The notes under the pieces were generated by a model. It was given only the letters and a program-made list of their open reading frames with translations, did no database searches and was not told the origin of the DNA. This document shows, in pieces, positions 15,743-60,112 of a DNA stretch of 64,000 nucleotides (position 1 is its first letter; the number at the start of each line of letters is the position of its first letter). Location of the stretch: positions 3,100,001-3,164,000 of the forward strand of contig NZ_JAGTUT010000001.1 in the NCBI RefSeq assembly GCF_025685605.1. The letters run 5' to 3'. The stretch comes from Granulicella arctica (GTDB taxonomy: Bacteria > Acidobacteriota > Terriglobia > Terriglobales > Acidobacteriaceae). A program made the translations under genes and the position numbers.

Positions 15743-15773
15743 CCCTGCTGATGGTTTGAGCCGCTCGCTGCGA

Positions 15774-15779
15774 TAGACT
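15774..15779 (+). promoter_or_regulatory. -10-like TAGACT before xseA
   Basis: TAGACT ends 9 nt before the xseA ATG at 15789, which would give a leaderless or near-leaderless message. The -35 region (TGGTTT at 15752-15757, 16-nt spacing) is weak. Confidence 0.3.
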
Positions 15780-15788
15780 CGAAGCGAT

Positions 15789-36056: not shown

Positions 36057-36551
36057 ATCGTGGTTTGTTGAGTCTGCTCGATGCGTTCGGCTGTTCGCTT
36101 TACCCTGTTTTGAGTAGGTTAGCAGGCGGAATGACTCTGTTAGCTACGGCTGGTCTGACCGGTGCGGCGGACCTTTCGGCGCGCTAAACTCATTTTCCAG
36201 ATGGGAAGTGACGCGACTTGTTGTCGCTTCGCTGGACAGGTCCAGCCGCTTGTAGTCTCGGTGCCTTTGCGTGTGAACCCGGTTGGGCGGGTGGCGCGGA
36301 ACGCGGCGAGCCTTGTTGGAATCTACTTCTGACTGGTGCCGTTCCGACAATCTGGGTTTGCGTCAATGATGCCAGAACTGTGACGCATGCGTTTTCTGCA
36401 TGGCAAGGTTATGCAGAGGTTTGCACATATTGCACTGTGCCGCGCTGAATATTGCCTGCAAAGTGCCTCTTGAGGCGCTTTTTCGATTTGGTACGCAACG
36501 TGCAAATTGGGTTTCAGGTGCGAGTTGCTGCATCGCATTCGGAGCCCTCCC
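36057..36551. other. Long intergenic region between mreB and the wbpA-like gene
   Basis: About 500 nt with no convincing coding frame. It ends in a strong intrinsic terminator (36460-36483) only 70 nt before the next gene. It could hold an untranslated leader or a small RNA. I compared it by eye with RNase P RNA and tmRNA hallmarks and saw none. Confidence 0.5.
36460..36483 (+). terminator. Intrinsic terminator or attenuator upstream of the wbpA-like gene
   Basis: AAAGTGCCTC and GAGGCGCTTT pair with a single G-U over 9-10 bp around a very short loop, ending in TTTTT. It sits about 400 nt after mreB and 69 nt before the next start codon. Confidence 0.65.
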
Positions 36552-37931
36552 ATGATCTGTGCATCACCTTTGCTGGAAAATACCAGCCTGCCGATTAGTA
36601 CGCAGAAGCGCCTTGAGCGTCTAGAAAACCATACCGCGAAGGTCGGTGTGATTGGCCTTGGCTATGTAGGACTTCCACTGTCGATGTTGCTTGCCGAAGC
36701 GGGCTTCAAGGTTACCGGGTTCGATATCGACATGACGAAGGTCGAGGACCTGACGGCTGGTCGAACTTATATTCGGCGCATCCCGCAGGAAGAGATTCAG
36801 TGCGCGCTCGGGCGCGGTTTCAAGGCCACGAACGACTTCGCGCATATCTCGGATATGGATGCGGTGATCATGTGTGTGCCGACGCCGCTCCGTGAGCATC
36901 GGGAGCCGGACCTGAGCTTTGTTGAGGAGACGTCGCGTTCGATTGCGCCGTGGCTCCGTGAGGGGCAACTGGTCATTCTGGAGAGCACGACGTATCCAGG
37001 GACGACGGAAGAGTTGGTCATCCCGATCCTCGAGGCGGAAAACCTACGCGGACTGAAGGCGCAAGGACCCGGAGTGCCGGAGGAGCAGGAGGTCTTCTAC
37101 GTCGCGTTCTCACCAGAGCGGGAAGACCCAGGGAACGATACGATTGCGCGCCGAGATATCCCGAAGGTGGTTGGCGGGCACGAGGCGATCGCAACGGAGA
37201 TGGCAGCGGTTTTGTATGAGGGGATCTTTACGCGAGCGGTTCGTGTGTCGTCGACGCGGGTGGCGGAGATGACGAAGCTGCTGGAGAATATCTATCGCTG
37301 CGTAAACATCGCGCTGGTGAACGAGCTAAAGCTGCTCTCGTTGAAGATGGATGTGGACATATGGGAGGTGATCGACGCTGCGGCTACGAAGCCGTTCGGC
37401 TTTCATCCCTTCTTTCCGGGACCAGGGCTTGGTGGCCACTGCATTCCGATTGACCCGTTTTACCTTAGCTGGAAGGCGAAGGAGTTCGACTTCAATCTGC
37501 GCTTTATTGAACTTGCAGGTGAGGTGAACGAGGCGATGCCGGGTCATGTCGTTAACTACGTGGCGGAAGGTCTAAACAAGCACAACAAGGCGATGAACGG
37601 GGCGAAGGTCCTGATGTTGGGAATGGCGTACAAGCGCGACATTGACGACCTGCGCGAGTCGCCCTCTTTGCGGACGATGGAGTTGCTCCGGGAGCGTGGC
37701 TGCGATGTCGTTTATAACGATCCTTACGTGCCGATGGTGGGTAAGGGGCGCAAGTACAACCTGAACATGAGAAGTACACCGCTTGAGAATCTGGACCAGT
37801 ATGACTGCGTTCTGATTATGACGGACCACTCAGACTACGACTACAAGCAGATTGTCGAGAGTTCGGTGCTGGTGGTCGATACGCGAAACGCTACGAAGGG
37901 CATTCGCTCAAGGAAGATTGTTCGCTGCTGA
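36552..37931 (+). CDS. wbpA: UDP-N-acetyl-hexosamine 6-dehydrogenase (WbpA-like)
   Basis: A two-fold NAD-dependent oxidation turns the 6-OH of UDP-GlcNAc (or UDP-ManNAc) into a uronic acid. The 459-residue protein has the Rossmann motif VGVIGLGYVGLPLS, the ESTTYPGTT and FSPEREDPGN blocks typical of UDP-HexNAc dehydrogenases, the catalytic Cys in GGHCIPIDP and the C-terminal GMAYKRDIDDLRESP. ATG 36552 has GGAG 7 nt upstream and is preferred over the frame from 36507. It is the first step of the WbpA-B-E-D route whose other genes lie at 46.6-49.3 kb. Substrate choice between UDP-GlcNAc and UDP-ManNAc is inferred from that context. Confidence 0.9.
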   Translation: MICASPLLENTSLPISTQKRLERLENHTAKVGVIGLGYVGLPLSMLLAEAGFKVTGFDIDMTKVEDLTAGRTYIRRIPQEEIQCALGRGFKATNDFAHISDMDAVIMCVPTPLREHREPDLSFVEETSRSIAPWLREGQLVILESTTYPGTTEELVIPILEAENLRGLKAQGPGVPEEQEVFYVAFSPEREDPGNDTIARRDIPKVVGGHEAIATEMAAVLYEGIFTRAVRVSSTRVAEMTKLLENIYRCVNIALVNELKLLSLKMDVDIWEVIDAAATKPFGFHPFFPGPGLGGHCIPIDPFYLSWKAKEFDFNLRFIELAGEVNEAMPGHVVNYVAEGLNKHNKAMNGAKVLMLGMAYKRDIDDLRESPSLRTMELLRERGCDVVYNDPYVPMVGKGRKYNLNMRSTPLENLDQYDCVLIMTDHSDYDYKQIVESSVLVVDTRNATKGIRSRKIVRC

Positions 37932-38013
37932 AGCACTGATCGTGGAGCAGTGAAAGATCAGCCGGGCCGTGCAAGAGATAGATCGAGCGTTGACGCTTAG
38001 GGATGTGAGAATC

Positions 38014-41000
38014 ATGCTGAATTTAAAGAATGTACTATCGCGCCGCAACTCGTGTGGGATGGCGTTCCTCTTTGTTTTCGCGCTGTGCTGCGTTGGCAGA
38101 GCCGGGTTGGCACAGTGCAGTGCTCCTGCGAATGCAATCGTGGCGGAGAACTGTCTGACCGGTAATCCGTCGAGCGAATGGGACCTGAATACACCGGATG
38201 GTGGAGACCCGACGATTCAGGGTTTTGCCACGGACATCAGCGTGAACCAAGGCGGCACAGTTACGTTCAAAATTAATACGACTGCGCTTGCGTATACGCT
38301 CTCGATCTATCGGGTGGGCTACTACGGTGGGCTCGGAGCACGCAAGGTGGCCAATCTCTCCGTGTCCCTTCCGCAGGCGCAGAGCCAGCCAGCCTGCATG
38401 ACGGATGCCAGCGTTGGCCTTGTGGACTGCGGTAACTGGGCGGTGTCCGCGACGTGGCAGGTGCCGGCGACGGCTGTCTCCGGCGTCTACTTCGCGCACT
38501 TAGTTCGAACCGATACTGGCGGCGACAGTCATGTCGTCTTCGTCGTGCGTAACGATACGAGTCACTCAGCCATTCTTTACCAGACCTCGGATGAGACGTG
38601 GCAGGCCTACAACTACTATGGCGGAGGAAGCCTGTATGGTCCTGCGTCTCCGAATTTTAATCTGAGTGCGCGTTCGTACAAGGTGAGCTACAACCGGCCA
38701 TTCTTGACGCGCGGTTTCGCGCAGGAGTCGGACACGTGGCTGTTCGGTCCCGAGTTCCCGATGATTCAGTGGCTTGAGCAGAACGGCTACGATGTGACCT
38801 ACTCTACGGGCGTCGATGCGACCCGGAGCGGGACGTTGATCCAGAATCACAAGCTGTATATGGACTCAGGCCATGATGAATACTGGGCTGGTACTCAGCG
38901 AACGAACGTCCAGGCGGCGCGCGATGCGGGTGTAAACCTGGCGTTCTTTAGCGGCAACACTATGTTCTGGAAGACGCGTTGGGAAAACAGCATTGATGGG
39001 ACGAATACTCCGAATCGAACACTGGTCTGTTACAAGGAGACGCTTGCATTTGCAAAGATCGATCCGAGCGACCCTCCCACGTGGACGGGAACCTACCGTG
39101 ATCCGAGCTTCAGTCCGCCTGCTGATGGGGGTATTCCGGAGAATGCGGTGACCGGTACGTTGTTCGTAGTCAACGGGACCGGTGCTGACAACGACGGAAG
39201 CCTGACGATGAAAATTCCCGCGGCTGAAGGCGCGATGCGCTTCTGGCGCAACACTGCTGCGGCGACCCTTGGTACGAATGCGACCCTCACCTTGCCTCCT
39301 GGTTCGATTGGATACGAATGGGATACGGATGCTGATAATGGTTTCCGTCCTGCCGGTCTGTTCGACTTGTCGAGTTCGTCGTACACGCTAACCTCGGACC
39401 TGTTGCTTGACTATGGTGCAACCTATGGGGCGGGTAATGCTGTGCACCACATGACGTTTTATCGTGCACCGAGCGGCGCGCTGGTGTTCAGTGCAGGGAC
39501 GATCAACTGGTCGTGGGGCCTGAACAGCAATCATCAGAATCCATTCAACTTCACGACGCCGGCTCCTAGTGCGACGATGCAGCAGGCAACGGTAAATCTT
39601 TTTGCTGACATGGGCGTGCAGCCAACAACGCTGCAGGCAGGTATTGTGGCGGCAACGGCGTCTACAGATGTGACGCCGCCTACCTCTAGCATTACATCGC
39701 CGGCCGCTGGTGCCGCTCTGAATGCGGGAAGCACGGTGACGGTGACGGGAACGGCGCACGATGTCGGGGGCGTGGTTGCAGCAGTGGAATTCTCCAGTGA
39801 CAATGGAACGACATGGCATCCTGCAACTGGACGAGCGACCTGGACCTATACCTGGACGCCATCGGTAGTCGGTTCGACGACGCTTCTGAGCAGGGCAGTA
39901 GACGATAGCGGCAATCTTGAAGCGCAGCACAACGGACAGCTCGTAACGGTATCCCCGCAAGTATGTCCGTGCGGCGGCTTCAATGCTTCCGCTGCTCCCG
40001 TAAATGCTGACAGTGGTGATGGAACAGCGGTTGAGGTTGGGATGAAATTCCGAGCAGACTCAAACGGTTCTGTTCTGGGTGTGCGGTTTTACAAGGCTGC
40101 CGCAAACACGGGACAGCACGTAGGGCACATCTGGTCGAGCAGTGGAACGCAGCTAGGTACCGCCAACTTTGTCGGCGAGAGTGCCTCGGGCTGGCAGGCG
40201 GTGAACTTCTCGGCACCGATACCGGTTGTTGCGAACACGACCTACGTAGTGTCGTACTTTGCACCAGCGGGGCACTACTCCGCTGACCAATATGCGTTCC
40301 AGCAAACAGGCATCGACGATCCACCGGTCCATATCCTGGCGAACGGGGTCGACGGTCCGGATGGTGTGTTTACTTATGGTACGACCGGCGGATTTCCGTC
40401 GTCCGGCAACCTTGCGACGAACTACTGGGTTGATGTGATTTACACCTCGTCCAACACGTATAACATGTCCGGAACGGTGAGCGGCTATGGAGGCGTGGGG
40501 GCCACGTTGACCCTGAGCGGACCAGAGTCTTCGGCCGCCGTCGCAGATGCCAATGGTGCGTTTACCTTCAGCGGCCTGGTCAATGGAACGTACAGTGTTA
40601 CACCGAGCAACCCTGGTGTCACGTTTACCCCAGCCGCTCAGACGGTGGTGATCAACGGGGGTGTTGTTACCGGGGTGAACTTTACAGCCGTCGTAACCAA
40701 TCCGCTGAGCATCGCAGGAACGATAAGCGGCGGCGGCGGTGTGACAGTCAACTTGACTGGATCAACGACCGCAACGACGACTACAAACGCTTCCGGAAAT
40801 TATTCCTTCACGGGTTTACTTGGTGGGACGTTTACAGTAACGCCTATCCTTACGGGTTACAGCTTTACTCCGGGTTCGCAGACCGTGACGCTGTCTGGAA
40901 GCAGCGCCAGTGCGGTGAATTTTGCTGGCGTGCTCTGTAACTGCTCGTCCATCTGGCAACCCTCCGCCGTGCCGGGTTTGATCGATGCAAACGACGCGAC

Positions 41001-43596
41001 ACCGGTTGAACTGGGAGTCAAGTTCCGGGCTGATAGTGCGGGGCTGATCACCGGCGTGAGGTTCTACAAGGCTGGCGCGAACACAGGAACACATATTGGA
41101 CATTTGTGGACGAGTGCGGGTGTGCAGCTTGGCAGCGCAACATTCACGAATGAGTCAGCGTCTGGCTGGCAGAGTGTCACCTTTGCATCACCGATTTCAG
41201 TGCAGGCCAATACGACGTATATTGCGTCCTACTTTACGCCGACTGGCCACTACTCCGCCGACACCAATTATTTTGCAACAGCAGGAGTCGATAGCCCGCC
41301 GCTGCATGCGCTAGCCAACGGAGTTGATGGCGCGAACGGGGTATATCTCTATACGTCGAGCGGTGCATTTCCGACAAACACCTATGCTTCTACAAACTAC
41401 TGGGTCGATGTTGTGTATGTGCCTGCGCAGGCCTATCCACTTACAGGGACGGTAGCCGGTGGAGCGGGGGCAACGGTCGCCCTTATGAGCACGGCAGGTG
41501 CGACGGTTGCAACGACCGTGGCGGATGGTTCGGGTAATTATTCCTTCACCGCGTATTCGGGAACCTATTCAGTCATCCCTTCGCTTAGCGGCACTGTCTT
41601 TACTCCCGGCAATCAGAATGTCACGGTAGGGTCGGCTGCGCTGACGGGCGTGAACTTCTCAGTGCCAACGATCTGTCCCTGCACCACGATCTGGCCGGGA
41701 TCGGTGCAGCCTGGCACAATCGATTCAGCCGATACACAGCCGTACGAGCTGGGCGTAAAGATCACCGCCGACTCGGACGGATACATTCTCGGAATACGCT
41801 TCTATAAGAGTGCAGCTAATGCAGGAGCGCACCTGGGTAATCTCTGGTCGACGACCGGAACGCTGCTTGCGTCGGCGAGCTTCACGAGTGAGAGCGGTTC
41901 AGGCTGGCAGCAGGTCTTCTTTGGAAGCCCTGTGGCGGTGACAGCAGGGACGACGTATGTCGCTTCCTACTTTACCCCGGTGGGACGTTACTCTTCCGAC
42001 TCTGCATTCTTCGCTAGTGCCGGAGTCGACACGCCACCACTGCATGCTCTTTCGAACGGTGCGGGCGCTGGAGACGGAGTCTTCCTGAACGCTGCGACAA
42101 GCGGCTTCCCGACATCGTCCTATAACGCCACGAACTACTGGGTGGATGCGATCTACGCGAAGCCTTCGACACACAGCATCGGTGGGACGATCACCGGAGC
42201 CGTTGTATCAGGAGTGAGCGTGGCACTGAGCGGAGCGTCGAGTGCTACGGCGGTTACCAATGCGTCGGGCTCTTATAGCTTCAGTGGATTGGTTGACGGC
42301 AACTACACGGTAAAGGCAAGCGGTGCAGGGCTGGCGTTTACTCCTGCAACGCAGGCGGTTACCGTGAGCGGGTCTCACCAACTCGGTGTAAATTTTGTGG
42401 ATACTGCTGTGACGGCGTCTTACGTGGTGTCTGGCGTAGTCACCGGCGGTGCAGGAGTGACGGTCGCGCTGACGGGCGCGGCCACGGCGAGTACAACTAC
42501 AAACGCTTCGGGAGCCTACAGCTTCCCCTCAGTGGCGAATGGATCGTATGTAATCACGCCATCGAGCACGCTCTACACAATAGCTCCTGCGAGTGAGTCG
42601 ATCATTGTGAACGGGGCGAATCTTACGGCCGCTGCATTCAAGGCGACGTTGATCACTTACTCGATTAGTGGAACGATCACCTCGGGATCTGGAGCTACGG
42701 TCAAACTGAGTGGCGCGGCTACCGCAACAATGACAGCGAGCAGCACGGGCGCTTACAGTTTTGCGGGCCTTGCTAATGGTAGTTATACGGTGACCCCGAC
42801 GAAGTCTGGCACCACGTACCTGCCAGCCAGTACGGCGATCACTCTAAACAATGCGAATGCCACGGCAAACTTTGCACCGGCATTTACCATTTCAGGTACG
42901 ATCAGCGGCGCAGGCGGATCTGGAGCTACGGTTGCTCTGAGTGGTGCGGCGACCGCAACGACGACAGCGAGCAGTACCGGGGCGTATAGCTTTCCAGGTC
43001 ACGTGAACGGTTCCTATACGGTCACGCCGAGTAAGACGGGTTACACCTTCACTCCGGTGGCCACGACAGTGACCGTCAATGGCGCGAATGCCACGGCGAA
43101 CTTTACGTCGGCGGTGAAGACCTACACGATCACGGGCACTATCAGCGGTGCTGGTGGTTCGGGAGCCAGCGTCAAACTGACCGGCGCTGCAACGGCGACC
43201 GTTACGGCAACGAGCGCTGGTGTCTATACCTTCACGGGAGTGGCGAACGGCAGCTACACGGTGACACCAACGAAGGCGGGCTTTACGTTTACGCCTGCGA
43301 GCACAGCGATCGTCGTCAACGGAGCGAACGGCACTGCGAACTTCACGGCCGTGGCACAGACGTTTACGCTCTCAGGAACGATCTCGGGAGCAGGCGGGTC
43401 TGGGGCGACGGTCAAGCTGAGTGGCGCCAGCACTGCGACCGTGGTGGCCAGCGCGTCGGGGGCGTATAGCTTCACCGGCTTGGCAGCCGGTGCGTACACC
43501 GTTACGCCAACAAAGTCCGGTCACATCATCCTGCCATCGTCGCAGTCCACTACGATCAAGACCGCAAACGTAGCACTTAACTTTCTCTCATTCTAG
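38014..43596 (+). CDS. Giant secreted DMFase-like / DUF4082 / repeat protein
   Basis: A 1860-residue exported protein; the signal peptide ends near GLAQ (about 34). Domains in order: an N,N-dimethylformamidase beta-subunit-like region (about 40-530, with GYYGGLGARKV, the DSGHDEYW motif and FFSGNTMFW), one Ig-like domain (about 555-640), and three DUF4082 domains (about 650-812, 975-1135, 1222-1382), each with VGMKFRAD or a close variant, GVRFYK and TNYWVD. They are separated by CarboxypepD-like modules. A C-terminal array of six more modules of about 76-83 residues follows, with core S(I/L)SGTI.G....V.LSGA and AYSFTGL.NGSYTVTP. It lacks an outer-membrane or sortase anchor. It lies between wbpA-like and amino-sugar genes, so a surface adhesin or matrix role is inferred; amidase activity is unproven. 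Confidence 0.88.
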   Translation: MLNLKNVLSRRNSCGMAFLFVFALCCVGRAGLAQCSAPANAIVAENCLTGNPSSEWDLNTPDGGDPTIQGFATDISVNQGGTVTFKINTTALAYTLSIYRVGYYGGLGARKVANLSVSLPQAQSQPACMTDASVGLVDCGNWAVSATWQVPATAVSGVYFAHLVRTDTGGDSHVVFVVRNDTSHSAILYQTSDETWQAYNYYGGGSLYGPASPNFNLSARSYKVSYNRPFLTRGFAQESDTWLFGPEFPMIQWLEQNGYDVTYSTGVDATRSGTLIQNHKLYMDSGHDEYWAGTQRTNVQAARDAGVNLAFFSGNTMFWKTRWENSIDGTNTPNRTLVCYKETLAFAKIDPSDPPTWTGTYRDPSFSPPADGGIPENAVTGTLFVVNGTGADNDGSLTMKIPAAEGAMRFWRNTAAATLGTNATLTLPPGSIGYEWDTDADNGFRPAGLFDLSSSSYTLTSDLLLDYGATYGAGNAVHHMTFYRAPSGALVFSAGTINWSWGLNSNHQNPFNFTTPAPSATMQQATVNLFADMGVQPTTLQAGIVAATASTDVTPPTSSITSPAAGAALNAGSTVTVTGTAHDVGGVVAAVEFSSDNGTTWHPATGRATWTYTWTPSVVGSTTLLSRAVDDSGNLEAQHNGQLVTVSPQVCPCGGFNASAAPVNADSGDGTAVEVGMKFRADSNGSVLGVRFYKAAANTGQHVGHIWSSSGTQLGTANFVGESASGWQAVNFSAPIPVVANTTYVVSYFAPAGHYSADQYAFQQTGIDDPPVHILANGVDGPDGVFTYGTTGGFPSSGNLATNYWVDVIYTSSNTYNMSGTVSGYGGVGATLTLSGPESSAAVADANGAFTFSGLVNGTYSVTPSNPGVTFTPAAQTVVINGGVVTGVNFTAVVTNPLSIAGTISGGGGVTVNLTGSTTATTTTNASGNYSFTGLLGGTFTVTPILTGYSFTPGSQTVTLSGSSASAVNFAGVLCNCSSIWQPSAVPGLIDANDATPVELGVKFRADSAGLITGVRFYKAGANTGTHIGHLWTSAGVQLGSATFTNESASGWQSVTFASPISVQANTTYIASYFTPTGHYSADTNYFATAGVDSPPLHALANGVDGANGVYLYTSSGAFPTNTYASTNYWVDVVYVPAQAYPLTGTVAGGAGATVALMSTAGATVATTVADGSGNYSFTAYSGTYSVIPSLSGTVFTPGNQNVTVGSAALTGVNFSVPTICPCTTIWPGSVQPGTIDSADTQPYELGVKITADSDGYILGIRFYKSAANAGAHLGNLWSTTGTLLASASFTSESGSGWQQVFFGSPVAVTAGTTYVASYFTPVGRYSSDSAFFASAGVDTPPLHALSNGAGAGDGVFLNAATSGFPTSSYNATNYWVDAIYAKPSTHSIGGTITGAVVSGVSVALSGASSATAVTNASGSYSFSGLVDGNYTVKASGAGLAFTPATQAVTVSGSHQLGVNFVDTAVTASYVVSGVVTGGAGVTVALTGAATASTTTNASGAYSFPSVANGSYVITPSSTLYTIAPASESIIVNGANLTAAAFKATLITYSISGTITSGSGATVKLSGAATATMTASSTGAYSFAGLANGSYTVTPTKSGTTYLPASTAITLNNANATANFAPAFTISGTISGAGGSGATVALSGAATATTTASSTGAYSFPGHVNGSYTVTPSKTGYTFTPVATTVTVNGANATANFTSAVKTYTITGTISGAGGSGASVKLTGAATATVTATSAGVYTFTGVANGSYTVTPTKAGFTFTPASTAIVVNGANGTANFTAVAQTFTLSGTISGAGGSGATVKLSGASTATVVASASGAYSFTGLAAGAYTVTPTKSGHIILPSSQSTTIKTANVALNFLSF
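42172..43596 (+). repeat. Tandem in-frame repeat array (about 225-250 nt units)
   Basis: Six consecutive coding repeats begin near 42172, 42421, 42658, 42882, 43122 and 43363. Each encodes a CarboxypepD-like beta module. The last four are the most alike (GTISGAGGSGA.V.LSGA). Confidence 0.85.
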
Positions 43597-43685: not shown

Positions 43686-44843
43686 TTACAGGGTGAAGTG
43701 CTGGATGGTCTCGATGATGTAGTCCTGGTCGGCCTCAGTCATCTGGTGAAAGAGGGGAAGGATCAGGCCAGTCTCGGTCGCGAGATTTGTGCGGGGTAGA
43801 GCTGCATCATTCGAGTCCGAGCGGTACGGGAGTTCGCGGTGGATTGCCATAATGGATCGCCTGGTGGAGATCGATCGATCGAGGAGGTACTGCATCAAGT
43901 GATCGCGCTGTGCGGCGACAGGCGGGAGAAGCCTGACCATGTAGGACTGGTAGTTCGGATTTGATTCTGCTGGAGTAGCTGGTGTGACCAGCCATGGAAG
44001 CATGCGCAGGCTTGCTGTGTATCGCTCCGCAAGGTGACGACGCCGCTGAAGGAAGGTATCAAGTCGTGCGAGTTGAATGACCCCAATGGCGGCCTGCATG
44101 TCGGTCATGCGGAAGTTGAATCCTACTTCGTCGTAGGTCTCCGTGCTGATGCTGGTGGCATTATGACGTGTCACATCGGAGAGGCTCATGGCGTGCTGGC
44201 GAAGTCGGCGCAGGCGCTCGGCGAGAGCGGGATCGTTGGTCGTGATCATGCCGCCCTCGCCAGTGGTCAGGATCTTCCGTGGATGGAAGCTGAAGCACGT
44301 GAGGTTTCCGAGATTGCCGATATGCGCGCCGTTGTAGGTCGCCCCGATGGCACAGGCCGCGTCCTCAATGACGGGCAGGTCGTATCTCGCAGCGACCTCC
44401 ATGATCGCGTCCATATTTGCTGGTAGACCAACCTGATGGACAACGAGGATCGCCTTCGTGCGAGGGGACACCAGCTTTCCTATTTCGTCGGCATCGAGAT
44501 TGTAGGTGGCGAGATCAATATCGCCAAAGACTGGCGTTGCGCCTGTGTGTACGATTGCATTCGCCGTTGCGATGAAAGACAGACTGGGGCAGATGACATC
44601 ATCGCCACTGCCGATGCCGAGTACGAGGAGAGCGAGTTGCAGGGCCGTGGTGCAGGACGAGACGGCCACAGCGTGCTCGCATCCGACGTAGGCAGCGAAC
44701 TGTCGTTCGAACTCGATAACGCGCGGACCCTGGGTAACCCAGCCGGAGCGGAGGACGTCGAGTACGGCTTGCTCTTCTTCAACGCCGATGTAGGGTCGAG
44801 CTACGGGGATCATGGACTGCGGTGGTGCGATGAGTGTGCTCAT
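43686..44843 (-). CDS. DegT/DnrJ/EryC1 family aminotransferase
   Basis: A PLP-dependent sugar aminotransferase (385 residues) that would aminate a keto-sugar nucleotide, similar to ArnB or perosamine synthase. It has SSCTTALQLALLVLGIGSGD near the N-terminus, the Asp/His block PVIEDAACAIGA and the PLP-Lys in FSFHPRKILTTGEGG. ATG 44843 is chosen because GGAG lies 7 nt upstream and it overlaps the epimerase stop (ATGA). It is the last gene of the six-gene minus-strand sugar operon. Position of amination (C3 or C4) is not determined. Confidence 0.93.
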   Translation of the reverse strand: MSTLIAPPQSMIPVARPYIGVEEEQAVLDVLRSGWVTQGPRVIEFERQFAAYVGCEHAVAVSSCTTALQLALLVLGIGSGDDVICPSLSFIATANAIVHTGATPVFGDIDLATYNLDADEIGKLVSPRTKAILVVHQVGLPANMDAIMEVAARYDLPVIEDAACAIGATYNGAHIGNLGNLTCFSFHPRKILTTGEGGMITTNDPALAERLRRLRQHAMSLSDVTRHNATSISTETYDEVGFNFRMTDMQAAIGVIQLARLDTFLQRRRHLAERYTASLRMLPWLVTPATPAESNPNYQSYMVRLLPPVAAQRDHLMQYLLDRSISTRRSIMAIHRELPYRSDSNDAALPRTNLATETGLILPLFHQMTEADQDYIIETIQHFTL

Positions 44844-45829
44844 ACGGAGGCTCCGACGCAGGCGGCCGTATCTGCTTTGGCAGTGTGACGCCAAGCTATG
44901 AGAGAGCGAAGTCCGGCCTCGAGATCAGTTTTTGCTCGGAAGTTGAGCAGACGTTCGGCCTTGTCGATCGCAGCGAGTCGGGTCTGGACGTTGTTTACCT
45001 TGCGGCTCACGTGATACTCCGGCTGTAATGAAGAACCGGTGACCTTTAGGAGGAGATGACAGAGTTCGTTGAGTGTGGTCTGAAGACCGAATCCGACGTT
45101 GAAGACTTCGTCGGTGATATCGGCAACGAGGCCGGCGACATTGGCCCGGGCGACGTCCTCTACAAAGACGAAGTCCATCGACTGCTTTCCATCGCCAAAG
45201 ATCTTTGGTGGCTGACCTGCTTCGATGGCGTCGATCCAACGGATAAGTACTTCTGTATAGAAGCCGTCGAGGTCCATGCGAGGTCCGTAGATATTGAAGT
45301 AGCGGAAGGCGACGTAAGGTAGTTGGAACATCTCGTAGTAGGAACGGAGCATCTGCTCGTTTGCGATCTTTCCAGCTCCGTAGAGAGTCCGGTTATTAAA
45401 GGGATGCGCCTCGTCCATCGGAAGATAGGAAGGATCGCCATAGACGGATGCTGACGAGGCAGCGACGATCTTTTTGACGTTATGGCGAACCGCACTTTCG
45501 AGGACGTTGAGGGTGCCCCCCATCAAAACCTCGACGGCCTCGCGGGGAGCTTCGGCGCAACGAGTGATGCGCAACGCTGCCTGGTGAAAGACGTAGTCAA
45601 CGCCGCGCGTCGCTTCGTCTACAGCTTCGGCGTCACGGATATCTCCTTCCATCACGACGACACGACCTTTGCGGCGCGTTTCTTCCAGGTTTCGTAGATT
45701 GCCGCGAACGAAGTTGTCGAGAACGCGGATCTCTGCGGCACCGGCATCAAGCAGAAGGTCGGCCGTGGTGCTTCCGACAAATCCTGCTCCGCCTGTGATG
45801 AGTATGGTTGCTCCGTGTATTGGGTTCAT
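44840..45829 (-). CDS. NAD-dependent epimerase/dehydratase
   Basis: An extended SDR enzyme acting on a nucleotide sugar (329 residues). Rossmann motif TGGAGFVGS, catalytic Tyr-Lys as YGAGK, Ser in SSASVYGD, and RYFNIYGPRM. It resembles UDP-glucose 4-epimerase or dTDP-/UDP-sugar dehydratase-type proteins; the exact reaction cannot be assigned. It precedes the aminotransferase with an ATGA overlap, so the two probably supply successive steps of one amino sugar. Confidence 0.93.
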   Translation of the reverse strand: MNPIHGATILITGGAGFVGSTTADLLLDAGAAEIRVLDNFVRGNLRNLEETRRKGRVVVMEGDIRDAEAVDEATRGVDYVFHQAALRITRCAEAPREAVEVLMGGTLNVLESAVRHNVKKIVAASSASVYGDPSYLPMDEAHPFNNRTLYGAGKIANEQMLRSYYEMFQLPYVAFRYFNIYGPRMDLDGFYTEVLIRWIDAIEAGQPPKIFGDGKQSMDFVFVEDVARANVAGLVADITDEVFNVGFGLQTTLNELCHLLLKVTGSSLQPEYHVSRKVNNVQTRLAAIDKAERLLNFRAKTDLEAGLRSLIAWRHTAKADTAACVGASV

Positions 45830-45917: not shown

Positions 45918-46598
45918 TTACTGGCGATACCGTATGATCCGCGCCGGGACTCCCGCTACGACCGCATATTCAGGGACATCCGACGTCACAACAGCGCCTG
46001 CGCCGACGATGGAATGCGCACCGACATGAACTCCGGGAAGAATGGTTGCGTTGGTGCCGATGTCGGCGCCAAAGCCGATGACGACCGCCTTGATCTCGAG
46101 ATCGGTTTTAATGATGGGCGTGTCGAGTGGCAGACCAGTATGTGACGATCCGAGAACTTTGGCTCCGGGGCCCCATCCAACATAATCCTCGATAACGAGG
46201 TTTCGAGCGTCGAAGTAGGATTGAGGTCCAATCCAGACGTGACTGCCGATTCTGCAGGTGCCATCGAAGCGCCCCTGAATCATGGTCTGTGCGCCGAGGA
46301 AGACGGCATCTCCAATCTCGAAGGTTTCAGGGTGCTTGACGACGACATCAGCTTCTACTCGCAGCCCGTGTCCAACGGAGGCGCACATGGCCTGGTAGAT
46401 GCTTGTGAGTTGAAGGGAATCAAATGAAGAGGCCGCGCCTCGATAGCGAGCGTGCATCGCCAGGAGTTCAGTCAGCGTGAAATGCGCTCTTAGATGAGCG
46501 GCGTAATCGCGCTGCCACATGGGATCTTTGGTGATCTCGGCGCTTCCGAAGACGGCCTGGACCGTCCGCAAACCGATCTCTTCGAGGCTAGCAGGCAT
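45918..46598 (-). CDS. Left-handed beta-helix acyltransferase (WbbJ-like)
   Basis: A 226-residue hexapeptide-repeat acyltransferase. An N-terminal helical region (about 1-75) precedes repeats from about 90 on (IGDAVFLGAQTMIQGRFDGT, IGFGADIGTNATILPGVHV) and ends AVVAGVPARIIRY. It would O- or N-acetylate a sugar or sugar nucleotide. It overlaps the preceding aminotransferase by 11 nt. A gap of 88 nt separates it from the next gene. Confidence 0.9.
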   Translation of the reverse strand: MPASLEEIGLRTVQAVFGSAEITKDPMWQRDYAAHLRAHFTLTELLAMHARYRGAASSFDSLQLTSIYQAMCASVGHGLRVEADVVVKHPETFEIGDAVFLGAQTMIQGRFDGTCRIGSHVWIGPQSYFDARNLVIEDYVGWGPGAKVLGSSHTGLPLDTPIIKTDLEIKAVVIGFGADIGTNATILPGVHVGAHSIVGAGAVVTSDVPEYAVVAGVPARIIRYRQ

Positions 46599-47694
46599 GG
46601 CAACTCTCCATCAGTTCGAGGGCGATGTGCGAGATAGCCTCGGTGCGAAGTCCAGGGTACATAGGCAAGGAGATAATGCGGTCCTTGAGGCGCTCGGTGA
46701 TGGGAAGATCGCCGAGGCTATAGCCAAGCGAACGGTATGCCTCCTGGAGGTGGAGCGGGGTGGGATAGTGGAGACCAGTCTCGATGCCTGCATCGGTGAG
46801 TTGCTGTCGCAGTAGGTCGCGATTATCAGACTGAATAACGTAGAGATGATAGACGTGGTGGGCACCGCTTCGTTCAGAGGGAAGTGTGACGTCCAGATCT
46901 TTGAGCGCGTGGGTGTAGGTTGCTGCTGCTTCGCGGCGCTGATCGTTCCAGCGGTCGAGGTGCTTCAGTTTTACGGAGAGAAAACCACCCTGGAGACCAT
47001 CCATGCGCATGTTCAAGCCTGGGAAGATATGCTCGTAGCGCTTTGAAGAGCCATGGTCACGCCACAGGCGAATCTTCCGGGCGAGCGCGTCGTCGTTCGT
47101 GGTGACTGCGCCACCTTCCCCACAGGCACCGAGGTTCTTACCTGGATAGAAGCTGAAGCACCCGGCAACTCCGAATGAACCTGCCTTCTGCCCGTTGTAC
47201 TCGGCGCCGTGAGCCTGGCAGGCATCCTCGACGACCGCAAGACCATGGCGATCTGCGATAGCGATGATTTGGCTCATGGCGGCGACTTGGCCATAAAGAT
47301 CAACCGGAATGATGGCGCGAGTTCGTGGGGTAATGGCGGCTTCGATGAGGTCGGGATCCATCGTGTAATAGACCGGATCAATATCGATGAAGACCGGAGT
47401 GGCACCCACAGCAGTGATCGCCTCCGCGGTGGCGATGAAGGTGTGTGCGACTGTGATCACTTCATCGCCAGGTCCAACACCAAGCGAGGCGAGGACAAGC
47501 TGAAGCGCTGCTGTGCCGCTATTCAGTGCGATGCAATGCGTGGTGCCGGTATAGGCTGCGAACTCCTGTTCGAAGCGAACGACCTCCGGTCCGAGAACGA
47601 ACGTAGAGTCGCGAAGCACTCTCTCGAAGACGCTGCGCAACTCATCCTCGATTCCAGAGTGGAGACTATGCAGGTCGACAAACGGGACTTTCAT
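46588..47694 (-). CDS. wbpE: DegT family aminotransferase (WbpE-like)
   Basis: A PLP-dependent enzyme of 368 residues, predicted to aminate C3 of the 3-keto-UDP-GlcNAc-uronic acid made by the WbpB-like enzyme. It has LNSGTAALQLVLASLGVGPGD, VVEDACQAHGAEYNG and the PLP-Lys in FSFYPGKNLGACGEGG. Assignment to WbpE rests on its position between WbpD-like and WbpB-like genes. Its ATG overlaps the WbpD-like stop (ATGA). Confidence 0.9.
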   Translation of the reverse strand: MKVPFVDLHSLHSGIEDELRSVFERVLRDSTFVLGPEVVRFEQEFAAYTGTTHCIALNSGTAALQLVLASLGVGPGDEVITVAHTFIATAEAITAVGATPVFIDIDPVYYTMDPDLIEAAITPRTRAIIPVDLYGQVAAMSQIIAIADRHGLAVVEDACQAHGAEYNGQKAGSFGVAGCFSFYPGKNLGACGEGGAVTTNDDALARKIRLWRDHGSSKRYEHIFPGLNMRMDGLQGGFLSVKLKHLDRWNDQRREAAATYTHALKDLDVTLPSERSGAHHVYHLYVIQSDNRDLLRQQLTDAGIETGLHYPTPLHLQEAYRSLGYSLGDLPITERLKDRIISLPMYPGLRTEAISHIALELMESCHAC

Positions 47695-48239
47695 GACCTC
47701 TCCAATCGTCGTACGTGGCGGGCGGGATTTCCGGCCACAATGGTATTTGGCGGAACGCTGCGGGTGACGACGCTTCCGGCACCGACGATCGCATCTTCAC
47801 CGATGGTGATGCCGCACAGGATAGTGCTGCCGGTGCCAATGGATGCGCCACGTCTGACCTCCGTGCCGACGACCTGCCAATCAGCCTCGGTTTGAGACCG
47901 GCCCGAGGCAGTGGTGGCGCGGGGATAGCGATCGTTGATGAACGAGACATTGTGGCCGATGAAGACGTCGTCTTCGATTTGCACGCCTTCGCAGATAAAG
48001 GTATGACTCGACACCTTCACGTTTCGTCCAAGGGTGACGTTCTTCTGAATCTCGACGAAGGCGCCTATTTTGCTGTTATCGCCGATCGAACAACCGTAGA
48101 GATTAACGAAGGCGAAGAGACGAACGTTTTCACCCAGGATGACGTCGTTTGCGATCCGGCTGTACTCCGGCATCGCCGCGGACCGCGATTGGAGAGCGAG
48201 GGCGGAGAGTTCGGGGCCGGCTTCCAGAGTCTGAGGCAT
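47691..48239 (-). CDS. wbpD: N-acetyltransferase, left-handed beta-helix (WbpD-like)
   Basis: A 182-residue hexapeptide acetyltransferase predicted to acetylate the 3-amino group of UDP-2-acetamido-3-amino-2,3-dideoxy-glucuronate. The diagnostic block DDVFIGHNVSFINDRYPRAT is that of WbpD-type enzymes, and repeats IGTGSTILCGITIGEDAIVG and the ending AGNPARHVRRL fit the fold. The first 22 residues are an extra segment; the internal ATG giving MPEYSRIANDV may be the true start. It directly follows the WbpB-like stop. Confidence 0.9.
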   Translation of the reverse strand: MPQTLEAGPELSALALQSRSAAMPEYSRIANDVILGENVRLFAFVNLYGCSIGDNSKIGAFVEIQKNVTLGRNVKVSSHTFICEGVQIEDDVFIGHNVSFINDRYPRATTASGRSQTEADWQVVGTEVRRGASIGTGSTILCGITIGEDAIVGAGSVVTRSVPPNTIVAGNPARHVRRLERS

Positions 48240-49283
48240 CTAGGCGGCTCCCTGGCTCAGCATGAGATCGGAGGCCTCGAGTTCAACAAGCTTGCCGCGC
48301 TGCTTCATGGAACGCGAGGCGCACTCTAAAATTTCAACGATGCGCAGACCTGCCTGGCCGCCAGTAAGCGGTTCTTTGCCGGTCTGGATGCAGTCGAGGA
48401 AGTGTTGTATTTCGACCTTCAGAGCTTCAGAGACGTCAAGTTGCGGAGCAAACATATCGCCAGATCGATAGCCTACGAGGGCTTTGTAGAGGGAATCGGT
48501 GCCGCTATTAAGAGTGATGCCCTTGTCGTAGATCTTGACCTTCTCACTCGGTTCCATATCGTCGTAGACGATCATCTGCTTGCTGCCGCCGACGAGAGTG
48601 CGGCGAACTTTGACCGGCGAGAGCCAATTGACGTTAAGGTGCGCAATAAGATTGCCCTCAAAAAACATGGTGATGTAGGCAAGGTTTTCGGTGCCGCCGA
48701 ACTGGTGGTTGATACCTGTAGCGGAGACGGCGCAGGGACCGGAGGGAAGTATGTAGTCCATGATTGCGAGGTCATGTACGGCAAGATCCCAGATGACATC
48801 GACATCCCTCTGAAAGAGCCCGAGATTGATGCGGGTGGAATCGTAGTAGAGGATGTCGCCGAGCTTGCCAGAGGTGACAATCTCCTTCATCTTGCGAACG
48901 GCCCCAGTGTAGACAAAGGTGTGATCTACCATGAGCGTCAGGTTGCGGCGTGCCGCTTCATCGATGAGGCGCCGAGCCTGCTCTGAGGTGGAGGTCATCG
49001 GTTTTTCGAGCATGACATGCTTGCCGCTGCGCAAGGCCCGGAGCGCAAGATCGAAGTGGGTCGAGACGGGGGTCGCAATCGCGATCGCATCAATCGCTGG
49101 GTTATCGAATAGATCTTGAACATCCGTAGTTGTCTCAACGGACGGATAGCGGCTGGTCACTTCAGCCAGTCGTTCTGTTCGCATGTCGCTGACTGCAACG
49201 ACGCGAGCTTGAGGAACTTCAAAGAGATTTCTTACGAGGTTTGGCCCCCAGTAGCCGTAACCGATTACGCCGAACTTGATCAT
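48240..49283 (-). CDS. wbpB: Gfo/Idh/MocA oxidoreductase (WbpB-like)
   Basis: NAD-dependent oxidoreductase (347 residues) that would oxidise C3 of the UDP-GlcNAc-uronate. It has the N-terminal FGVIGYGYWGPNLVRN, the EKP motif (HVMLEKPMTS) and the catalytic His in WDLAVHDLAIMDYI. ATG 49283 has GGAG 5 nt upstream; the frame could start at GTG 49289, but that is too close to the site. It is the first gene of the minus-strand operon, so its promoter lies in the divergent region to the right. Confidence 0.92.
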   Translation of the reverse strand: MIKFGVIGYGYWGPNLVRNLFEVPQARVVAVSDMRTERLAEVTSRYPSVETTTDVQDLFDNPAIDAIAIATPVSTHFDLALRALRSGKHVMLEKPMTSTSEQARRLIDEAARRNLTLMVDHTFVYTGAVRKMKEIVTSGKLGDILYYDSTRINLGLFQRDVDVIWDLAVHDLAIMDYILPSGPCAVSATGINHQFGGTENLAYITMFFEGNLIAHLNVNWLSPVKVRRTLVGGSKQMIVYDDMEPSEKVKIYDKGITLNSGTDSLYKALVGYRSGDMFAPQLDVSEALKVEIQHFLDCIQTGKEPLTGGQAGLRIVEILECASRSMKQRGKLVELEASDLMLSQGAA

Positions 49284-49660
49284 GTTCACTCCAATAGCTA
49301 CGAAAGCAGAGGTGGTCCACAGAAGGTCGGGATCGCTCAGTCTGCATCCGTGATGGCTGGAGTTGAAGCACGTCTGTGACCAAAGTCCAAAGAGTCACTG
49401 GTAGCGCTGATTCGGTCGCGACGAGCGCAACTCTTCGGTTGTTCTCACTTTTATCGCCTGGGGTGGTGCGACCGAAAGATGTCGTTTCACGAGACAACGA
49501 CTTGCACAGTGCGCAAAACGGTGCAGAATCTGCAGCAGCATCTGGGTCACGCCGAGAAGTTTCATTCGTTGGAGTTCCGGAGTTAAAGCCCGAGTCGCGC
49601 AACCATCTCCGCATTGGCCACTCATGTGCACTGTATTTGAGCGAGGTCCTGGACGAACGA
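49284..49660. promoter_or_regulatory. Divergent control region of the polysaccharide locus
   Basis: About 375 nt between the wbpB-like operon (leftwards) and the export operon (rightwards). GTCGTT-N9-AACGAC at 49481-49501 is an inverted repeat that could bind a regulator or form a hairpin. No clear promoter hexamers were identified. Confidence 0.4.
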
Positions 49661-50320
49661 ATGATTTTCTTGGCTAAACAACGGTTGAGCATGCTGGCGG
49701 CTCTTCTATTTGCTGCGGGAACCTGCTGCGATGCACAAAATGCAGCGATCGCCACAGCAGATTCTTCACAGCCAGTAGAGGCCAGTCACCGTGCTGAGCC
49801 GTCAACTGACAGCGGTCCTACGATCCCGAGCCAGTTGTTTTCCGGAGAGACGTCACACTTTGCCTTGGGAATCGCGGATGTAATTCATGTGAGCGTATGG
49901 AAGAACCCGGAGCTCTCACAGAGCGTGATGATCGGTCCGGACGGATTCGTGTCATTACCACTTCTGGGCGACATCCACGTCGCCGGGATGACGGCGGATG
50001 CACTGGCGCGCATGTTGACGACCCGGCTCTCCGCCTACGTGGTGAGCGCCCAGGTAACGGTGAGCGTTGTCGATATTAGAAGCCGCCAGGTGTTTGTAAC
50101 CGGACAGGTTGGAAAGCCGGGTGGCTATGCATTGATCGTACCGACGACAATTCTGCAATTGATTGCAGAGGCAGGCGGCCTTAACGCCTTTGCCGAACGC
50201 AAAAATATTCTCATCCTAAGAAAGAATGAGCGATTGAAATTCAACTATGTAAGTGCGATCCACGGAGACCTAAAGCAGAATATACCTCTACAACCCGGTG
50301 ATACGGTCATCGTTCCATAG
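49661..50320 (+). CDS. Polysaccharide export protein (Wza/GumB-like)
   Basis: A 219-residue exported protein of the outer-membrane polysaccharide channel type. The signal peptide ends near CCDAQ (about 25). The Poly_export domain (about 65-145) has LGIADVIHVSVWKNPELSQS and PLLGDIHVAGMTADAL, and a SLBB-type domain follows (VFVTGQVGKPGGYAL). No clean lipobox is present, unlike Wza. ATG 49661 places the signal peptide correctly; the open frame from 49376 is not supported. It is the first gene of the export operon. Confidence 0.92.
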   Translation: MIFLAKQRLSMLAALLFAAGTCCDAQNAAIATADSSQPVEASHRAEPSTDSGPTIPSQLFSGETSHFALGIADVIHVSVWKNPELSQSVMIGPDGFVSLPLLGDIHVAGMTADALARMLTTRLSAYVVSAQVTVSVVDIRSRQVFVTGQVGKPGGYALIVPTTILQLIAEAGGLNAFAERKNILILRKNERLKFNYVSAIHGDLKQNIPLQPGDTVIVP

Positions 50321-50328
50321 GAGGAACA

Positions 50329-51663
50329 GTGCATCACCTATGTCGTAGAGTTCTTCTCTTACTTGGCTTCTTAGGCTGTTTCTGTAACGCCGTTGTGTCT
50401 GGGCAGCAGACAACACAGACGTCGACGAGCACGACTGTGGCGGATGCCGATGAGCATCTGACTGCAGCTACAGGCCCAGTAGACGTGATCCAAGGGAATG
50501 AAGAGTACCAGCCACCGGTATACGCGACGGCTCTGGACGGAAGCGGCTTGATCTCCATGCGAGACTCCCAGCATGTCCGCTTGTTCTATGGCGCGACGGT
50601 TGCGGGCGGGTGGGATAGTGCGCCAAGTGGCCAGGCAGGGGACACGCCTCTGGCGTTCTACACGGTGAGTCCCTCCGTAGGCTTGCAGATCAACCGTGCT
50701 CGCCTGCAGACCGTTATTCAATATCAAAGAACGATGACTGGCTATAGCTCGAGTTCCTATACCAATCAAGCGGTGAATGTTGCGTCAGTCAAGCTGGTCG
50801 GTACAGAGAGTGAACGTCTGCAGTGGGGATTCAAGATGTCGGAAAGCTCTGGCAATGACGCAACACGCTTCCTGGCCCCACAGCAGACCGTAGCGGTGGG
50901 TGGTGTATCTGCTGTAGATCCAGGTTCTTCACTCTATCTGCAGAACGCAGGAAACACGACGTACCTGGATGCGGGCGCAGATGTTCGGTACCGCACCAGC
51001 GAACGCGGCGCACTGGTTGCGCAAATCGACAGTGTCTACAGCCGCTACTCCGGGCTCCAGCAGACCAATGGGCTTACGTCGGCTATCTTCAGCTACGAGC
51101 GGACTGTGAGACCAGCCCTGACGATCGACGGTTATGGGCAAGTATCGCGCTACTACGGCAACATCAGTTGTTCGAGCTTTGGCATCGGGATGGGACTGAA
51201 ATGGGAGCGGAATCAGCGAGAGTCGCTCACGCTGAGTGGAGGACCCCAACTCAATACCACTGCCTGCGAGAAACAGCAGGGCGTCAATTTCAGTGCTAAC
51301 TTCAGTATGGCTCTGACGGGTCGCTCCCACATGTATGTACTAGCATCTCGCCAGCCAGCTACTTCCTATATCGGCCCGGGCTTATGGCAGACCAGCGTTG
51401 CCGCGGGCTACCAGCGCCAGATTGGAAATCGGGGATCGTTAAATGTTGATTTGGGACGATTGGATAGTGAGGCCTCTGCTTTGACTTCTTCGTACCGAGG
51501 GACGTACGTGGCGTGTGTCTACAACCGCCAGCTCAGGTCGGAGCTGAACGCCTCGCTGAGCTATCGCGGTTATCTCGGCGAGGGCGACGGAGCTAACGTT
51601 CAGCGCAATGTAGTCCTGCTATCCCTCTCCTGGTCACCTACGACGGGGCACATCTTTCGTTAA
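50329..51663 (+). CDS. Outer-membrane beta-barrel protein of the export operon
   Basis: A 444-residue exported protein; signal peptide about 1-25 (ending VVSGQ). The mature part has many alternating beta-strand segments over the last 380 residues and ends SLSWSPTTGHIFR. It resembles the uncharacterised barrels that accompany Wza and Wzz genes in Acidobacteria and could be a Wzi-like surface anchor or a secretion pore; this is inferred from place. It starts with GTG at 50329 with GAGG 4 nt upstream and lies 8 nt after the export gene. Confidence 0.82.
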   Translation: MHHLCRRVLLLLGFLGCFCNAVVSGQQTTQTSTSTTVADADEHLTAATGPVDVIQGNEEYQPPVYATALDGSGLISMRDSQHVRLFYGATVAGGWDSAPSGQAGDTPLAFYTVSPSVGLQINRARLQTVIQYQRTMTGYSSSSYTNQAVNVASVKLVGTESERLQWGFKMSESSGNDATRFLAPQQTVAVGGVSAVDPGSSLYLQNAGNTTYLDAGADVRYRTSERGALVAQIDSVYSRYSGLQQTNGLTSAIFSYERTVRPALTIDGYGQVSRYYGNISCSSFGIGMGLKWERNQRESLTLSGGPQLNTTACEKQQGVNFSANFSMALTGRSHMYVLASRQPATSYIGPGLWQTSVAAGYQRQIGNRGSLNVDLGRLDSEASALTSSYRGTYVACVYNRQLRSELNASLSYRGYLGEGDGANVQRNVVLLSLSWSPTTGHIFR

Positions 51664-53226: not shown

Positions 53227-53993
53227 ATTCCGCGATAGAGATTACGCGTGGTATGTCTGAGCGTAGAGTTGACGGCATGGCGTTTCCTGTCCTTGGCTGG
53301 CACGACATCAAGCTGGAGCCTGCTAGAAATTCCAAGCTGGTTTATGTTACCGAGCCTGAGGGTCTAGCCGTCGAACAATACAAAATTCTTCGCGGGCGAC
53401 TCTGCACCATGCGGCCCAAGGGTGGTGTGATGCTTGTGACCAGCCCGGGGCCGGGGGAGGGAAAGACGCTGACCTCCGTCAACTTAGCTTGGAGCCTTGC
53501 TGCGGCCGGACAGACGACGTGCCTTGTAGACCTTGACTTCAGGGCGCCAGGGGTTGGCCGCACTATAGATTATGTGTTCGAGGTCGACGGCGTTGAAGAT
53601 GTGCTTCTTGGCAGACGCAGTGTGGCGCAGTCTTTGCGTCACTTCGGCCCAGCGTCGCCCTACATTCTAGGGATCGTGCAGCGTCGTGCATCGCCGGGAC
53701 AGTTCCTGTCTCCTGCGCTGCTCACCCCACTCTTCGATGAGCTTCGGACGATGTTTCAGTGGGTCATCCTGGACTTTGCCCCGGTGATTCCGATGGCCGA
53801 TGTTGCCGAGGTCATCTCCGCGGTAGATGGAGCGTTGATGGTGGCGCGTGTAAAGAGGACGAGCAAGGCTCTTGTCGATCCGGCCCTGGAGGTGCTCGGA
53901 TCTAAGCTCTGGGGAGTAGTTGTCAACGACTCGCCCATCGATGGCAGCTCATACTACGGGTATTATGGCAAACAGTCCTCATCGAAACTATAG
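53223..53993 (+). CDS. CpsD/CapB-type tyrosine kinase-like ATPase
   Basis: A 256-residue P-loop protein that acts with the Wzz-like protein. Walker A SPGPGEGKT (about residue 70), Walker A' CLVDLDFRAPG and Walker B VILDFAPV. The C-terminal SSYYGYYGKQ resembles the Tyr-rich tail of BY-kinases but is short. The GTG start at 53223 overlaps the preceding stop (GTGA) and has GAGG 8 nt upstream; an earlier GTG at 53178 would lie within the Wzz gene. Autophosphorylation is predicted, not shown. Confidence 0.88.
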   Translation: MNSAIEITRGMSERRVDGMAFPVLGWHDIKLEPARNSKLVYVTEPEGLAVEQYKILRGRLCTMRPKGGVMLVTSPGPGEGKTLTSVNLAWSLAAAGQTTCLVDLDFRAPGVGRTIDYVFEVDGVEDVLLGRRSVAQSLRHFGPASPYILGIVQRRASPGQFLSPALLTPLFDELRTMFQWVILDFAPVIPMADVAEVISAVDGALMVARVKRTSKALVDPALEVLGSKLWGVVVNDSPIDGSSYYGYYGKQSSSKL

Positions 53994-54048
53994 GCCGCCG
54001 TGTCCTTTTGACACGACCGCAGTTCCTTTCAGGCGAGGGAGAGAACAC

Positions 54049-57371: not shown

Positions 57372-57469
57372 GAAGCTCTTTTTCTGTTACGAGTTCCAGC
57401 GAGGCTTCTCCATCAATACCTCTAACGGACACTTTAGAACAACGTAGTAGCGGCTCGTAAGCGTTTGCA

Positions 57470-60078: not shown

Positions 60079-60112
60079 TCGATAGATACTCACCTTTCTT
60101 ACTAGCCAAAGT

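Follow-up and report, generated by a model that had tools for sequence, protein, structure and literature searches.

A candidate iron-dependent N-deacylase with lectin-like modules encoded in an exopolysaccharide locus of Granulicella arctica

What does a giant protein that joins a dimethylformamidase (DMFase)-like domain to Ig-like, DUF4082, and repeat modules do in an exopolysaccharide (EPS) locus? The question is posed by a forward-strand gene at 38014 to 43596 of the window, the 64,000-nucleotide stretch of the Granulicella arctica genome analyzed here (genome G000 of our set, contig 1, 3100001 to 3164000), to which all coordinates refer unless a locus is named. The gene lies in an open frame at 37969 to 43596, and its ATG at 38014 gives a protein of 1,860 aa (P0001). 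The N terminus reads by eye as a Sec-type signal peptide (residues 1 to 34, ending GLA/QC; 38014 to 38115), and the QC ending was likewise seen by eye in most relatives from the Acidobacteriaceae. It is followed by a DMFA2_C domain (PF20254; residues 95 to 508; 38296 to 39537; E value of 9.2e-102, 341.7 bits against a cutoff of 27), the predicted core of a DMFase/acylase-type iron amidohydrolase, and by a Big_7 Ig-like domain (residues 556 to 621; 39679 to 39876; E value of 1.5e-10). Pfam places DUF4082 (PF13313) in three stretches, above the cutoff (E value of 1.1e-144, 476.5 bits), and CarboxypepD_reg in nine, and local HMMs agree on three DUF4082 and nine CarboxypepD-like modules. These run, all on the forward strand, as DUF4082 copy 1 (residues 660 to 806; 39991 to 40431), two CarboxypepD-like modules (40456 to 40929), DUF4082 copy 2 (residues 985 to 1131; 40966 to 41406), one CarboxypepD-like module (41431 to 41664), DUF4082 copy 3 (residues 1231 to 1377; 41704 to 42144), and a repeat stalk of six tandem CarboxypepD-like modules (42169 to 43590). 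The coordinates and domain list of the initial annotation (a DMFase-like region, an Ig-like domain, three DUF4082 domains, and about nine CarboxypepD-like modules) were correct, and the secreted, surface-matrix type of protein that it proposed is supported by the signal-peptide-like N terminus together with the architecture. A chance open reading frame is ruled out by the DMFA2_C match (E value of 9e-102) and by relatives in several phyla, and matches to sulfite oxidase span the Ig domain only. A whole-genome scan identified P0001 as the sole DMFA2_C protein of the genome and placed all three genomic DUF4082 copies within it; the CE4 domain Polysacc_deac_1 (PF01522) had no Pfam match in the protein at an E value of ≤0.1.

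The enzyme domain was modeled with AlphaFold2 over residues 36 to 553 from an alignment of 34 relatives (mean pLDDT of 80.8, low at model residues 306 to 347). The model aligns with N-acetyl-(R)-beta-phenylalanine acylase (Z score of 28.9, root mean square deviation [rmsd] of 3.1, 420 residues aligned) and with dimethylformamidase (Z score of 28.3, rmsd of 3.2, 426 residues aligned), and ranks 1 to 9 of the 43 Foldseek matches at an E value of ≤0.001 are occupied by these two enzymes only. A profile search of PDB sequences recovered the same pair, with E values of 1e-14 for the acylase and 1.8e-8 for DMFase. Since one member of the superfamily is, going by its PDB entry name, an N-acetyl acylase, N-deacetylation is already known chemistry here. 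The next fold group is the human site-1 protease (S1P) ectodomain (Z score of 10.4, DMFA2_C model residues 41 to 517), and on this model a distant fold relation of DMFA2_C to S1P, outside the S1P protease domain, may exist.

According to its published description, DMFase coordinates Fe(III) through Y399, Y440, and E521, with H519 and N547 called essential (PMC7686228). We aligned the family profile to the wild-type, Y440A, and E521A DMFase chains and counted positions from there, which predicts Tyr199 (38608 to 38610; Y399 in DMFase), Tyr208 (38635 to 38637; Y440), and Glu289 (E521) as iron ligands, His287 (H519; 38872 to 38880 together with Glu289) as the catalytic residue, and Asn315 (38956 to 38958) as the counterpart of N547; the pairing of Y199 with Y399 relies on a weak local match to the Y440A chain together with the acylase alignment. 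All five residues are invariant in 34 of 34 alignment rows and also in 16 of 16 other proteins, most of them more remote and some with no detected DUF4082. Of two cysteines, C128 is conserved in 31 and C139 in 33 of the 34 rows, as suits an exported protein. We infer that the domain is catalytically competent, a conclusion that we consider well supported and hold with considerable confidence. The initial annotation had proposed that the protein binds or modifies an N-acylated polymer; modification is now the likelier half, given that the iron-hydrolase site is intact, with hydrolysis and a polymer substrate both predicted. The profile skips a stretch of ∼280 residues of DMFase and the acylase, and the pentraxin domain II of DMFase is missing from P0001. 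An ordinary role in dimethylformamide degradation was set aside on the grounds that the protein is exported, lacks the pentraxin domain, and lies in an EPS context. According to the same description, DMFase cleaves formamides only, is inactive on acetamide, and depends on its small subunit for activity (PMC7686228).

A model of DUF4082 built from 78 copies (pLDDT of 91.9) came closest to the lectin-like domain of Cwp84 and a mycobacteriophage central fibre (Z score of 11.8 each) and to PHR domains (11.1), and it also matched the binding domains of a polyvinyl alcohol esterase (8.2) and of acetyl xylan esterases (7.8); compared by sequence with PDB chains, DUF4082 had no match. The model predicts a lectin- or CBM-like beta-sandwich, with PHR and phage structural domains scoring alike, and the fold and context together make it plausible that DUF4082 holds a sugar or polymer. 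In Microtetraspora, the gene before that of the DMFA2_C protein encodes Ice_binding, Big_3_5, and DUF4082 domains (L033, 7005 to 8978, the locus on which Pfam was run; corresponding genes lie at 7127 in L034 and 7167 in L035), so DUF4082 is common to other surface proteins.

A contig scan with six peptide patterns, none containing any of the five active-site residues, picked out 43 loci with relatives in Acidobacteriota, Actinomycetota (Arthrobacter/Pseudarthrobacter, Microbispora, Nonomuraea, Microtetraspora, and others), Burkholderiales, Verrucomicrobiota, Poribacteria, and one Hyphomicrobiales contig. Local HMMs detected at least one DUF4082 beside the DMFA2_C-Big_7 core in 37 of the 43, and two of the remaining six leave the contig just after Big_7. 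CarboxypepD-like repeats are confined to the Acidobacteriaceae group, where they number 0 to 17 (3 to 17 where present). The core architecture is therefore DMFA2_C-Big_7-DUF4082, which spans Acidobacteriota, Actinomycetota, and Burkholderiales and to which the repeat stalk was added in one lineage. Of 396 evenly sampled Acidobacteriota genomes, 26 have DMFA2_C, 14 have DUF4082 over its cutoff, and 8 have both (Fisher P = 2.6e-7). DMFA2_C proteins that lack a DUF4082 profile match were mostly not near EPS genes at the loci examined, and the enzyme domain by itself thus does not indicate an EPS role; one such locus (L108, genome G349) has two EPS-type matches, and its genome holds one weak DUF4082 match on another contig.

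The main rival explanation is that P0001 is a structural matrix protein or adhesin in which DMFA2_C is inactive and persists as a fold only, while the repeats cross-link or anchor EPS. Its giant size, the lectin-like DUF4082 modules, and the variable repeat number of the Acidobacteriaceae proteins would all suit such a part, but some of the active-site residues would probably have been lost from a noncatalytic scaffold, and all five are invariant in both protein sets across several phyla; we regard this explanation as unlikely.

The genes around P0001 bear on what its substrate might be. A nucleotide-sugar 6-dehydrogenase of the WbpA/WecC type (36507 to 37931, forward strand; TIGR03026 above the cutoff) ends 82 bp upstream. 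Convergent with the giant gene, on the reverse strand, are genes for a DegT/PseC-type sugar aminotransferase (43686 to 44894), an SDR nucleotide-sugar epimerase (44840 to 45829), a 226-aa hexapeptide acyltransferase identified with Pfam (45918 to 46598), a WbpE/QdtB-type 3-aminotransferase with WbpE among its top matches (46588 to 47694), a WbpD/QdtC-type N-acetyltransferase that matches QdtC as well as an LPS acetyltransferase (47691 to 48239), and a Gfo/Idh/MocA dehydrogenase (48240 to 49289), probably a WbpB-type 3-dehydrogenase. The giant gene does lie, as had been claimed, between a WbpA-like dehydrogenase and an amino-sugar operon, comprising two DegT genes, the epimerase, two hexapeptide genes, and the Gfo/Idh gene. 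Four enzyme types of the WbpABDE pathway to 2,3-diacetamido uronic acid occur together (6-dehydrogenase, 3-dehydrogenase, 3-aminotransferase, and 3-N-acetyltransferase), the best equivalog of the Gfo/Idh protein being UDP-GlcNAc 3-dehydrogenase at a score below its cutoff. On the forward strand, Pfam matches identify a Wza-like polysaccharide export protein (Poly_export and SLBB; 49376 to 50320), a chain-length determinant (GNVR) and tyrosine-kinase-like ATPase (51688 to 53993), a multicopper oxidase (53920 to 55224), a NusG-family protein (55548 to 56117) that, within an EPS locus, is presumably a specialized antiterminator, and an initiating sugar transferase (Bac_transf) with a Wzx-type flippase (56223 to 59065). 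Genes at 59062, 61503, and 62750 resemble Pfam-identified glycosyltransferases of other loci and, with a gene at 60113, fill 59062 to 63613. Between the Wza- and Wzc-type genes, a secreted-looking protein with no Pfam match (50329 to 51663) is conserved with 40% identity at 14890 to 16263 of locus L120, and it is possibly an outer-membrane partner of export. These genes make up a complete-looking Wzx/Wzy-type EPS locus whose polymer would contain N-acylated amino sugars, and the gene content suggests that the sugar is plausibly a 2,3-diacetamido uronic acid. No CE4 deacetylase is encoded inside the window, the genome's two lying at 0.48 and 1.72 Mb.

These neighbors allow for an exported amidase that uses the same chemistry on another EPS bond, a uronamide, amino-acid amide, or N-formyl group instead of N-acetyl. 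The formamide-only activity of DMFase, as published (PMC7686228), and the uronic-acid-type dehydrogenase of the locus would be consistent with such a target. However, the locus encodes two hexapeptide acyltransferases, one of WbpD/QdtC type, the Pfam matches of the locus proteins scanned include no formyltransferase, and the nearest solved relative by both fold and sequence is an N-acetyl acylase; this alternative seems to us rather improbable. Acetyl as the group removed is itself a guess, made by analogy with the acylase relative and from the WbpD/QdtC-type gene.

Co-occurrence connects the giant protein to this cassette. Among 61 related genomes, the DUF4082-type giant protein is present in 7 (G000, G002, G011, G022, G025, G029, and G035), and the locus epimerase (76 to 100% identity) is found in exactly those 7 and at comparable identity in 0 of the 54 others, the only other match at an E value of ≤1e-60 being one of 40% identity in G059. 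The first DegT protein (64 to 100% identity) and the 226-aa hexapeptide protein (66 to 100%) occur in the same seven genomes and in G054 (61 and 57%, respectively); more distant DegT matches, of up to 41% identity, occur in further genomes. G054 has the amino-sugar cassette as well, together with a fragment of DUF4082 where a contig ends; a search of this genome for DMFA2_C found none. The multicopper oxidase is present in 6 of the 7 giant-protein genomes and in 0 of the 54 others. It also directly follows the giant gene in three relatives (L014, 6350 to 7573; L030, 16370 to 17659; L028, 16678 to 17955), with gaps of 19, 58, and 114 bp, and a second, oxidative tailoring step is possible. Physical linkage of the genes in six of the seven genomes means that co-transfer of one cassette may be a sufficient explanation there. 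In G022 they lie ∼457 kb apart (the EPS cassette is locus L120, G022:C1:2648000-2667999, and the giant protein is absent from that 20 kb), so one linked block does not account for the pairing in that genome; its sole DMFA2_C copy is a divergent, long-branch member.

We also counted linkage across 47 homologue loci and 40 control regions, using 19 window proteins as phmmer queries against all reading frames. Similarity to the DMFA2_C region was the basis for choosing the homologue loci, which are not independent (several are from Microbispora, Nonomuraea, and Arthrobacter); the controls were hand placed at round positions, 20 in four Acidobacteriota genomes and 20 in six Actinomycetota and Burkholderiales genomes, a set without Akkermansiaceae, gp6, or Poribacteria genomes. 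The window, L011 and L012 (the same records as L025 and L027), and L017 to L019 (no DUF4082) were left out of the counts; EPS matches occurred in 0 of the last 3. At least two window-type EPS proteins were encoded at 19 of the 47 homologue loci and at 0 of the 40 controls (Fisher P = 1.8e-6, a guide only, given that the loci are mutually related), and at least one at 28 of 47 and 5 of 40, respectively. An earlier count (24 of 47 against 1 of 40) was replaced, as its queries were partly drawn from the case loci and hence biased. The proposed tie to polysaccharide genes is supported both by co-occurrence and by linkage. The initial annotation had named homologues scattered away from such genes as counting against it, and in part this applies: at another 19 of the 47 loci, the window-derived queries found no EPS match. 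Several of these are short contigs, and they include Microtetraspora, some Nonomuraea, Nocardioides, Poribacteria, and several gp6 contigs.

Gene maps of individual loci were drawn from greedy ORF calls, which may choose wrong frames in GC-rich genomes. Acidobacteriaceae loci have the same DegT-epimerase-hexapeptide block, and in a deep-branching Acidobacteriota locus (L112) genes for Gfo/Idh, two hexapeptide proteins, DegT, and Wzx adjoin the DMFA2_C gene. WbpE- and Gfo-type genes occur at the locus of a Methylibium bin (L032), Wza- and GNVR-like genes at that of Rivibacter, ABC export and glycosyltransferase genes with one weak Wzy_C match at that of Akkermansiaceae, and a WecG-GT2 gene at five Arthrobacter/Pseudarthrobacter loci. 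A separate observation concerns a DAO-family FAD-dependent oxidoreductase with the motif HSGIYYKPGS, which we take to be LhgO-like; its gene lies within ∼4 kb of the giant gene in Acidobacteriaceae, Akkermansiaceae, and Arthrobacter (L013, L014, L015, L023, L025, L030, L036, and L046) and is often adjoined by one for a sigma-54 activator.

A scavenging or degradative enzyme for soil amides or glycans, unrelated to the cell's own EPS and linked to it through a shared mobile island, would account for the patchy spread (a DUF4082-type protein in 7 of 37 genomes of our genus sample, and DMFA2_C as given above for the phylum sample) and for the unlinked loci in part of the Actinomycetota. Yet linkage recurs in Acidobacteriaceae, deeper Acidobacteriota, Akkermansiaceae, Burkholderiales, and Actinomycetota, and co-occurrence survives without linkage in G022, and we consider this explanation quite improbable. 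That the Tyr-Tyr-Glu site merely holds iron in a matrix protein, an idea that could draw on the likening of the two-Tyr site of DMFase to ferric-binding proteins in its published description (PMC7686228), is very improbable, as H287 and N315, whose DMFase counterparts are called essential and are not ligands, are equally invariant.

The reading that we prefer, with a probability of about 0.52, is that of an exported Fe(III) N-deacylase whose lectin-like modules keep it attached to the EPS produced by its own locus. After export, P0001, as a two-Tyr, one-Glu Fe(III) amidohydrolase of the DMFase/acylase superfamily, would cleave N-acyl (probably acetyl) groups off amino sugars in the EPS. The Ig, DUF4082, and CarboxypepD-like modules would form a long arm, its lectin-like DUF4082 domains tethering the enzyme to the polymer; deacylation could then take place in the periplasm or matrix, on chains that are nascent or already deposited. 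This would probably yield free amines that alter charge and adhesion, as CE4-type deacetylases bring about for other polymers. For EPS as the substrate in particular, the genomic context gives somewhat better than even odds. A broader claim, that this is a new mechanistic class of exported two-Tyr, one-Glu iron polysaccharide de-N-acylases with their own lectin-like arm, serving as the dedicated tailoring enzyme of a mobile, multiphylum amino-sugar EPS cassette and making DUF4082 a new carbohydrate-binding family, is more tentative, and we place it somewhat short of an even chance.

To our knowledge, the polysaccharide N-deacetylases described so far are CE4-type or related metal enzymes. If our reading is correct, a tyrosinate-iron amidohydrolase acting on exported EPS would be new chemistry for polysaccharide N-deacylation, and the DMFA2_C family, named after the hydrolysis of an industrial solvent, would gain a natural class of substrates. 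DUF4082 would acquire a function as well, and a tailoring step would be identified for the EPS of Acidobacteriota, a little-understood soil polymer. In the open-access literature, as far as its text was available, we found no report of an EPS role for dimethylformamidase-type, DMFA2, or PF20254 proteins, and for DUF4082 we found a mention in a secretome table and nothing on EPS.

Among known systems, N-acetyl-(R)-beta-phenylalanine acylase (PDB 8huy and 8i5a) is the best match in fold and in PDB sequence, with the HxE motif and the first Tyr aligned; the two proteins are 20% identical, and the acylase has its own large inserted domain (chain residues of about 55 to 335 are skipped by the alignment), whereas P0001 has a signal peptide and Ig, DUF4082, and repeat modules. 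The large subunit of DMFase (PDB 6lvb) shares the fold, and its Y399, Y440, H519, E521, and N547 are all conserved in P0001 at 18% overall identity, but P0001 is exported and multimodular and has no pentraxin domain II. DMFA2_C proteins without detected DUF4082 share the Pfam domain and all five residues with P0001 but, at the loci examined, mostly lack EPS neighbors. HfsH, PgaB, and IcaB are CE4 polysaccharide N-deacetylases, and the task proposed here for P0001, N-deacetylating the EPS of its own locus, is the same as theirs, although fold and metal chemistry differ. For HfsH, one study reports effects on adhesion (PMC8449245).
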